The notes under the pieces were generated by a model. The model saw only the letters and a list, made by a program, of their open reading frames with translations, was not told where the DNA came from and ran no database searches. From an uncultured Schlesneria sp. (GTDB lineage: Bacteria > Planctomycetota > Planctomycetia > Planctomycetales > Planctomycetaceae): a stretch of DNA of 64,000 nt. The position numbers and the translations under genes are program-made. Position 1 is the first letter of the stretch; every line of letters starts with the position of its first letter. This document shows positions 11,277-11,365 of the stretch, piece after piece. The stretch is from contig CAIULL010000070.1 in NCBI GenBank assembly GCA_903899985.1, positions 1-64,000 on the forward strand. Direction: 5' to 3'.

Positions 11277-11363
11277 CGGAGAGGGAGGGATTCGAACCCT
11301 CGGTCCAGTTTCCCGGACACAGCATTTCCAGTGCTGCACAATCGGCCGCTCTGCCACCTCTCC
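11277..11363 (-). tRNA. tRNA-Ser (anticodon GGA)
   Basis: The minus strand folds as an 87-base class II tRNA. The acceptor stem GGAGAGG pairs with CCTCTCC, the D arm is GGCAGAGCGGCC, and the anticodon stem CAGCA/TGCTG encloses loop CTGGAAA, giving anticodon GGA (11327-11329). A long variable arm (GTCCGGGAAACTGGAC) and T arm (GAGGGTTCGAATCCCTC) follow, with discriminator G. CCA is not encoded. A run of eight T follows directly and could end the transcript. The 5' half of the gene is the left attachment site of a genomic island, so sequence upstream of the tRNA (to the right) belongs to the island. Confidence 0.96.
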
Positions 11364-11365
11364 GA
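11324..11365. repeat. attL: left 42-bp direct repeat
   Basis: Identical to 36601-36642. It covers the tRNA-Ser sequence from the last base of the anticodon loop region to the tRNA 5' end plus two bases. On the left side it is part of the intact tRNA gene. The flanking bases differ on both sides, so 42 bp is the exact identity block. Confidence 0.95.

Follow-up and report, generated by a model that had tools for sequence, protein, structure and literature searches.

Does a mobile island that integrates in a tRNA gene also supply the sequence from which this gene is transcribed? The question is raised by a region of an uncultured Schlesneria sp. in which a tRNA-Ser(GGA) gene has an island on its upstream side; the 64,000 nucleotides that were analyzed are referred to as the window. 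In the Islander collection 3760 islands are flanked by a 3' fragment of their tRNA gene and 159 by a 5' fragment (PMC4383910), in agreement with the initial annotation of the locus, which regarded the 5' direction as that of a minority.

According to a review on archaeal recombinases, recombinant tRNA genes of bacteria are expressed from their original promoter with very few exceptions (PMC8371274). In Archaea, the pTN3-like elements depart from this rule: their attB is the 5' half of the tRNA gene (41-bp identity), the restored tRNA is parted from its original promoter (PMC8371274, PMC5495485) and it is expressed from the integrase promoter, a situation described as seldom seen in bacteria (PMC8371274).

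In this work we analyzed the island, its integrase and the relatives of this integrase in other genomes and in viral contigs, and we show that integration at the 5' half of tRNA genes is a property of the whole, mainly planctomycete, integrase lineage, as indicated by the position of the tRNA genes and by the attR copies. The upstream region of these elements was also searched for a promoter directed towards the tRNA.

Results

The island and its empty site

ARAGORN called a single tRNA gene in the window; it lies on the minus strand at 11276-11363 and encodes tRNA-Ser(GGA), with the anticodon at gene position 35. The 42 bp at 11324-11365 are repeated exactly at 36601-36642; these were the two matches in the window when up to three mismatches were allowed, and there were none in 100 shuffled sequences. 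The repeated block extends from one base past the anticodon loop to two bases past the 5' end of the tRNA. The repeat and the gene position given by ARAGORN thus confirm the earlier proposal that the attachment core is the 5' half of the tRNA, starting at the anticodon loop. Hence 11324-11365 represents the attL core, 36601-36642 the attR core, i.e. the displaced original 5' half, and 11366-36600 (approximately 25.2 kb) the integrated island. The anticodon loop (11325-11331, minus strand) is the putative crossover region, given the anticodon position and the ends of the shared block in 12 elements that are described below.

The locus has the characteristics of the islands compiled in Islander: the tRNA gene and its own fragment flank the island in the same orientation, the fragment is a 5' one placed upstream of the tRNA, the size of 25.2 kb falls within the range of 2-200 kb, and a tyrosine integrase gene is present inside (PF00589, 31 bits against a cut-off of 27.1). 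It also has the one expected of tRNA islands in general, since the island is absent from a relative that conserves the intact site. In this locus (L015, from genome G001 of the same genus), positions 1-1590 match the window at 9764-11363 (88.9%) and positions 1551-3090 match it at 36601-38163 (82.3%), the two alignments overlapping on exactly 40 bp that correspond to the tRNA 5' half. Because the alignments meet on this half, the sequence to the right of 36642 is the original upstream flank of the tRNA (36643-36800, now cut off), as the initial annotation had supposed, and the island lies upstream of the tRNA and provides its upstream sequence. In the integrated state, according to the repeat and the empty site, the tRNA is formed by an island 5' half and a host 3' half, and the 5' half of the host with its upstream region has been displaced by 25 kb. 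The right flank is also found near the tRNA in five other genomes (G002, G006, G009, G011 and G012; 59-66% identity). In G004, G005, G007 and G014 the sequence upstream of the tRNA is island-like and this similarity continues into the integrase start, where only scraps of the integrase were present in the approximately 1.5 kb examined; these loci are considered decayed copies.

A second tRNA-Ser(GGA), which had been named as a finding that would go against a dependence of this tRNA on island DNA, was sought in the whole genome using 11240-11500 as query; the copy at 11276-11363 was the only one found, and the remaining tRNA-Ser genes matched were CGA, GCT and TGA. It is almost inconceivable that the two copies of the repeat were created by misassembly or represent a tRNA pseudogene that arose by chance. 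The assembly consists of 296 contigs, which could favor the former, but the shuffled sequences gave no match and the clean empty site already contradicts this idea, as do the presence of an integrase, the matching palindromes at both island ends (see below) and the recurrence of this structure elsewhere, including two single-contig genomes (G027 and G032).

The cargo of the island includes a type I restriction-modification system at 23896-30796 on the plus strand (HsdM at 23896, HsdS at 25515 and HsdR at 27746), identified with Pfam and PADLOC, and a Fic/DOC protein near the right end (35782-36411, plus strand; PF02661), along with a serine resolvase, a PIN-domain protein and an AAA ATPase. 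For 10 island proteins run through PADLOC, the type I restriction genes were the only ones recognized, and NCBIfam gave no match for the eight proteins searched, the integrase included. Three long island proteins (16532-19507, 14417-15898 and 22151-23512, of 991, 493 and 453 residues, respectively) had no match in Pfam, NCBIfam or PADLOC.

The integrase lacks the usual first catalytic arginine

The integrase gene (11528-12874, plus strand) is a single open frame that is divergent from the tRNA and starts 162 bp from the attL core. Its assignment is based on PF00589, alignments, AlphaFold and Foldseek. The AlphaFold model had a mean pLDDT of 87.5 and a pTM of 0.63, and the best Foldseek matches of this model were the integrases of Tn1549 and lambda; these predictions support that the protein is a tyrosine recombinase. 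A search of the PDB with the single sequence retrieved a chance match only, and a profile search with the integrase family found XerA and XerD. In the profile alignment, the first catalytic arginine of XerA/XerD is aligned with Gly262 of the integrase, and over the 112 rows of the family alignment (L128 and L203 were left out as too short) this position is occupied by glycine in 106 and by arginine in none. The histidine of the HxxR motif is replaced by tyrosine in 104 of the 112 rows, and Arg285 (112), Lys287 (111), Arg376 (109) and Tyr407 (104) are conserved. Therefore, an evidently mobile integrase lineage exists without the usual first catalytic arginine.

That Arg285 may substitute for the missing arginine is a guess, yet a reasonable one because the first arginine is also missing or shifted in the IntDOT and IntDes subgroups of tyrosine recombinases, and IntDes shows the change of histidine to tyrosine as well (PMC8138268); compared by description, IntDes is reported there from Desulfovibrio only, whereas the present lineage is mainly planctomycete. 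The integrase had no match at an E value of 1e-5 among 50,697 phage and 72,556 plasmid records. A second and broken integrase fragment of the same family was detected inside the island at 14175-14354 (45% identity to residues 374-432, with one stop), which suggests that the island could be composite.

The direction of integration is nearly constant in the lineage

Relatives of the integrase were obtained from three sources: the genomes of 59 relatives, of which 25 have matches (22 of the longer ones constitute a set of members with longer flanks, from which fragments were left out); IMG/VR, with 32 viral loci; and the GTDB species genomes, from which the best 80 of 121 relatives were kept. The record titles name Planctomycetota or its subgroups for 75 of these 80 GTDB loci, and other groups for L161, L188, L198, L205 and L209. 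Within the 700 bp upstream of the integrase match, a tRNA faces the divergent integrase by its 5' end in 69 of the best 80 of 121 GTDB loci and by its 3' end in two (L192 and L207). No tRNA was called in the other nine, three of which (L133, L166 and L209) have, by eye, a tRNA-5'-like stretch at the contig end. A tRNA is present upstream in 10 of the 32 IMG/VR loci, always facing by its 5' end; seven of the 22 viral loci without tRNA have at most 51 bp of contig upstream. The 22 members with longer flanks, several of which are also included in the GTDB set, comprise 19 cases at the 5' end, one at the 3' end (L042, from G008) and two lacking a called tRNA.

The 79 viral and GTDB cases at the 5' end span 20 anticodon classes, the targets being tRNAs for Met (types not told apart), Arg, Thr, Phe, Lys, Ser, Ile, Asn, Leu, Asp, Glu and His, and one called SeC. 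A quick tree was built with 108 integrases, leaving out the distant viral rows L125, L126, L127 and L129; 41 of its 105 inner branches are open. The three 3' cases (L192, L207 and L042) represent two changes within 5' surroundings on this tree, and the identity of the tRNA differs between well-supported sisters, e.g. Lys/Arg (L132, L134), Met/Ser (L174, L200) and Lys/Phe (L160, L181). On the basis of these sequence comparisons, direction is more stable than target in this lineage.

We evaluated these results against another possibility, namely that the locus is a tRNA island which merely belongs to the rare 5' class and shows no adaptation, because any upstream sequence suffices or the tRNA is dispensable. 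The tRNA-Ser(UGA) might cover the codons of tRNA-Ser(GGA). Moreover, islands with a 5' fragment are known, being 159 of the 3919 in Islander (PMC4383910). Nevertheless, we consider this possibility quite unlikely given that the direction is constant over 20 anticodon classes while the targets change between sister integrases, and that the targets include tRNA-Phe (G059) and tRNA-Asp (G062), for each of which one full-length copy was found in the draft genomes searched; for these counts the completeness of the genomes is not given, and diverged copies can be missed, as illustrated by the Phe query, which missed a called tRNA-Phe in G060.

attR copies and control integrases

The attR was found for 12 distinct elements and in all of them it is a tRNA 5' half: the window, G007 Ser(CGA), G001 Arg(CCT) and Met, G032 Thr, G027 Arg(TCG) and Met, L153 Glu, L176 Met, L178 Thr, G059 Phe, and G062 Asp, the last being located on a different contig from its tRNA. 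The identity stops 0-5 bases past the anticodon loop in the 12 elements. For 15 of the 22 members with longer flanks an attR was not found, many of their contigs ending inside the element, and none was found in G002 (60 kb), G005 (42 kb) or G010 (27 kb) either. Repeat matches to an internal tRNA stretch (29-49) in L119 and to a 14-mer in L200 were not counted as attR, nor were the 3' fragments present in G059 and G062.

In the viral contigs L101, L110 and L124 a bare tRNA 5' half that ends at the anticodon loop was observed by eye ahead of the integrase, which is the arrangement that would be expected of an attP. When 10 of the many proteins of these three contigs were compared with PHROGs, matches to tail tape-measure proteins were obtained near the integrases of L110 and L101, and nothing of known function near that of L124; given the tape-measure matches, some members of the lineage are probably temperate phages.

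As a control, ten complete or near-complete planctomycete genomes were examined, comparing, among the matches listed, 133 PF00589 rows with 79 tRNA rows (for G002 all of its 49 tRNA matches, and for the nine other genomes the tRNA-Ser genes that were listed). Among the matches listed, 16 integrase-tRNA pairs lie within 1.5 kb; the integrases that do not belong to the family are at the tRNA 3' end in 14 of 14 pairs, and the members of the family are at the 5' end in 2 of 2. Both tRNAs of the latter also bear a non-family integrase on their 3' side. Four tRNA genes are squeezed in this manner between a 5'-type element and, on the opposite flank, a 3'-type integrase or fragment: G002 Arg(CCT), G007 Ser(CGA), G059 Phe and G062 Asp. 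In these genes only the anticodon region may be original.

Conserved block and arm-type sites upstream of the tRNA

The upstream sequences of 79 elements share a block located at -36 to -6 from the tRNA, for which an EM motif search reached a likelihood of 264 with 30 starts, against 88-99 in five shuffled sets with 12 starts each. In the window this block was placed by eye at 11369-11399 on the minus strand. Further upstream, tandem repeats similar to GGTGTCA, mostly with a 12-bp period, are visible around -80 to -55; by eye, their letters differ between elements and are usually equal within a pair. Exact 8-mer repeats at a spacing of 9-15 are present in 42 of the 79 elements, the mean of the shuffles being 0.5. 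Judging from their arrangement, these tandem repeats behave as the arm sites of an integrase would.

Candidate arm-type sites in the window, in line with the family-wide tandem repeats, are two copies of GGTGTCAA on the minus strand, at 11417-11424 and 11458-11465; five copies of GGTGTCAA occur in the window where 2.6 are expected, a weak excess when taken alone. In addition, a search for GGTGTCNNNGACACC with one mismatch allowed gave two occurrences in the 64 kb (0.11 expected), one near each island end: the palindromic arm-type candidates GGTGTCAAAGACACC at 11484-11498 on the left and GGTGTCTTTGACACC at 36475-36489 on the right, both on the plus strand.

The proximal region is not the best promoter candidate

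The initial annotation had placed a promoter for the tRNA in TTGCAA and TAAAAA near 11381-11413 and suggested comparing the promoter elements of the island with the original flank. The promoter was not supported: a scan for sigma-70 promoters had no match at 11100-11700, and none at 36400-37000 either. Pairs of sigma-70-like hexamers within 80 bp are found in 27 of 89 native tRNA upstream sequences versus 3.4 in shuffles (L231, L266 and L020 were left out of this set, and the decayed copies L007, L009, L012 and L014 are still included in it), and in 5 of 79 elements versus 5.4 in shuffles, i.e. with no excess.

A promoter near 11370-11413, formed either by these hexamers or by an A+T-rich box at -20 to -11, is in our view unlikely. 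It would be consistent with the conservation of the 30-bp block at -36 to -6, which by eye contains the TAAAAA, and with the fact that 18 of 79 elements have a TATAAT, with up to one mismatch, whose start falls between -20 and -11, versus 6.7 in local shuffles, none of 1000 shuffles reaching 18. Nonetheless, a -35-like hexamer at a distance of 16-18 bp accompanies only 2 of these 18, the opposite strand shows the same box at the same place in 13 of 79 elements, the window itself lacks a sigma-70 match in the scanned stretch, and the conserved block could equally be a site for the integrase or for an accessory protein. Given that it lacks a -35 and that the opposite strand is nearly as rich, the -10 at -20 to -11 was not taken as a promoter. 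A better candidate is found where the integrase gene begins, within its coding sequence at 11535-11563.

A candidate promoter embedded in the integrase start

This candidate was missed by the motif searches over 45-80 bp upstream of the tRNA and appeared when 200-260 bp were used. When 260 bp were scanned, 26 of 80 elements had a TAGAAT facing the tRNA between about -150 and -220, and none had it there on the opposite strand. The hexamer TAGA[AC]T, 90-240 bp upstream and with the same orientation, is present in 47 of the 80 elements, as compared with a mean of 3.2 and a maximum of 9 in 300 shuffles and with one case on the other strand; in the remaining 33 elements it was not found in this interval. 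The element of the cultured Botrimarina colliarenosi Pla108 (L150), located at a tRNA-Arg(TCG), is among those that have it. Among nine members outside the discovery set it occurs in five, two of which (G002 and G005) are close relatives. In the three members located on the tRNA 3' side (L192, L207 and L042) a search from 120 bp before to 80 bp after the start of the integrase match did not detect it, and none of 26 other PF00589 proteins has it within its first 25 codons.

One codon phase is shared by 45 of the 47 hexamers. The hexamer begins at base 7 from the nearest in-frame start in 28 of the 47 (codons 3-5), at base 10 in six and at base 13 in eight. The residue encoded by the first codon that it touches varies (Lys, Asp, Asn, Gln, His, Tyr or Glu) while the DNA letters are constant. 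With start codons chosen blind to the hexamer (found for 67 of the 80 elements), codon 4 encodes serine in 24 cases and is TCT in 21 of them, versus 9.3% of the 766 serine codons at positions 21-300 of the integrase genes (p = 3e-19, a value that is overstated because the rows are related). A TT pair located 16 bp further upstream is conserved in 91% and 87% of 45 sequences; since this pair falls on an in-frame Lys codon, its conservation may reflect the protein.

A promoter matrix was derived from 58 native tRNA upstream sequences of G000 and G002, none of which came from the elements under study or from decayed copies; its consensus is CTTGcc for the -35, a spacer of 16-17 and TAtanT for the -10. 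The score exceeds the 95% shuffle cut-off in 26 of the 80 elements, where 4 are expected; in 23 of these 26 the match lies at -145 to -203. On the opposite strand the matrix fires in 18 of the 80, and these matches may include the promoter of the integrase itself. In decayed copies, in which the integrase is broken, ATTCTA is kept in three of four (G004, G005 and G007) and ATTGTA is found in the fourth (G014); in G004 the best score of the matrix is elsewhere, at -30.

In the window, the -10-like TAGAAT facing the tRNA is at 11535-11540 on the minus strand, over integrase codons 3-5, and was assigned by family conservation; a weak -35-like TTTTCG is located 17 bp from it at 11558-11563, also on the minus strand. 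The -10 is intact and the -35 is poor, so that the matrix score of 5.5 is below the cut-off of 9.5. The original flank and the empty site L015 have scores of 3.5 and 3.9, neither of them convincing, and it follows that the matrix misses some real promoters or that the native promoter of tRNA-Ser(GGA) is of another kind. As a family feature the candidate promoter is well supported by these sequence patterns, and less well in the copy of the window.

The hexamer could have a different role, either as a recombination or regulatory site or by driving an antisense RNA for control of the integrase; the tRNA would then be transcribed from elsewhere and the geometry would remain as described. Its vicinity to the arm-type repeats, its overlap with the beginning of the integrase gene, a natural place for antisense control, and its absence from 33 of 80 elements could be explained in this way. 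In contrast, the fit to the -10 and to the spacing learned from native tRNA promoters, the orientation towards the tRNA, the retention in copies with a broken integrase and the three members that are not upstream of a tRNA, in which the hexamer was not found, argue against this, and we judge the different role rather unlikely.

Discussion

The initial interpretation of this locus is partly supported: its geometry was right, its promoter was not supported and the scope is larger, comprising a whole integrase lineage. We consider it probable that a 5'-direction island, a habit of the lineage and an element-borne promoter for the tRNA together account for the results. According to this model, a mobile island with a tyrosine integrase recombined in the uncommon direction at the anticodon loop of the host tRNA-Ser(GGA), its attP carrying a tRNA 5' half and the upstream region. 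The tRNA would then be transcribed from an element promoter placed on the strand opposite to the integrase gene and overlapping its first codons, with TAGA[AC]T as the -10 and a -35 about 16-17 bp further, yielding a leader of approximately 160 nt that runs past the integrase arm sites. Excision by the integrase would be reversible, whereas deletions removing the promoter region would silence the tRNA and, therefore, this region would be expected to be kept even where the integrase has decayed. It is likely that the element takes over the expression of the tRNA, to judge from the sequence of its upstream region. With less assurance we lean towards a more general idea, in which the lineage would carry a portable cassette of promoter and half tRNA, with the promoter opposite the first codons of the integrase and held there by codon choice.

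If this were the case, integration would place a host tRNA that is often single-copy under the control of the element, deletions that eliminate the element would be costly, and the promoter would be left as a fossil once the rest of the element decays. A widespread lineage would then reverse the usual rule, and the expression of host tRNAs, including tRNA-Phe and tRNA-Asp, would rest on mobile DNA. The system also makes it possible to test whether elements gain stability from the takeover of an essential gene, how an antisense promoter is maintained within a coding sequence, and how integrases change their targets and yet keep their direction.

The 5'-type arrangement itself is of a known, rare kind. 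As in the 5'-fragment islands of Islander, a tyrosine integrase, a regenerated tRNA gene and a displaced 5' fragment upstream in the same orientation are present, and the anticodon loop is among the crossover places listed there (PMC4383910). In the text of that work that deals with this class, a minority of 4%, it is tied to no lineage and promoter supply is not mentioned, whereas here a single lineage is consistent in its direction. The pTN3-type elements share with our island the tRNA 5' half as attB; in pTN3, however, the integrase gene spans attP and is disrupted upon integration, while here the gene is intact and divergent, and the candidate promoter is on the opposite strand in its 5' end. 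In the state-dependent promoter switching described for ICEKp1 (PMC13023037), a tRNA gene and an integrase are also coupled across an att junction, although as a mirror image: the host tRNA promoter drives the integrase, and here element DNA would drive the host tRNA. The lineage-wide 5' habit and the embedded antisense promoter look new, as the open-licence literature yielded neither a comparable bacterial lineage nor an antisense promoter for a tRNA within an integrase gene.

In the tRNA-dependent lysogeny of actinobacteriophages, the integrated element is likewise responsible for the function of a host tRNA, but the tRNA is destroyed and a whole phage tRNA replaces it (PMC10865867), unlike the chimeric rebuilding seen here; the tRNA of our locus is complete, and no other was called in the window. 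Regarding whole tRNA genes in other loci, the tRNA-Met element of G027 (L064, 199-272) has a second whole tRNA-Met about 1.2 kb downstream of its integrase. Finally, seven tRNA-like matches, two of them low-scoring, lie within 2 kb in G000 (C3:37780-39506), a cluster that is perhaps an element-borne tRNA array.
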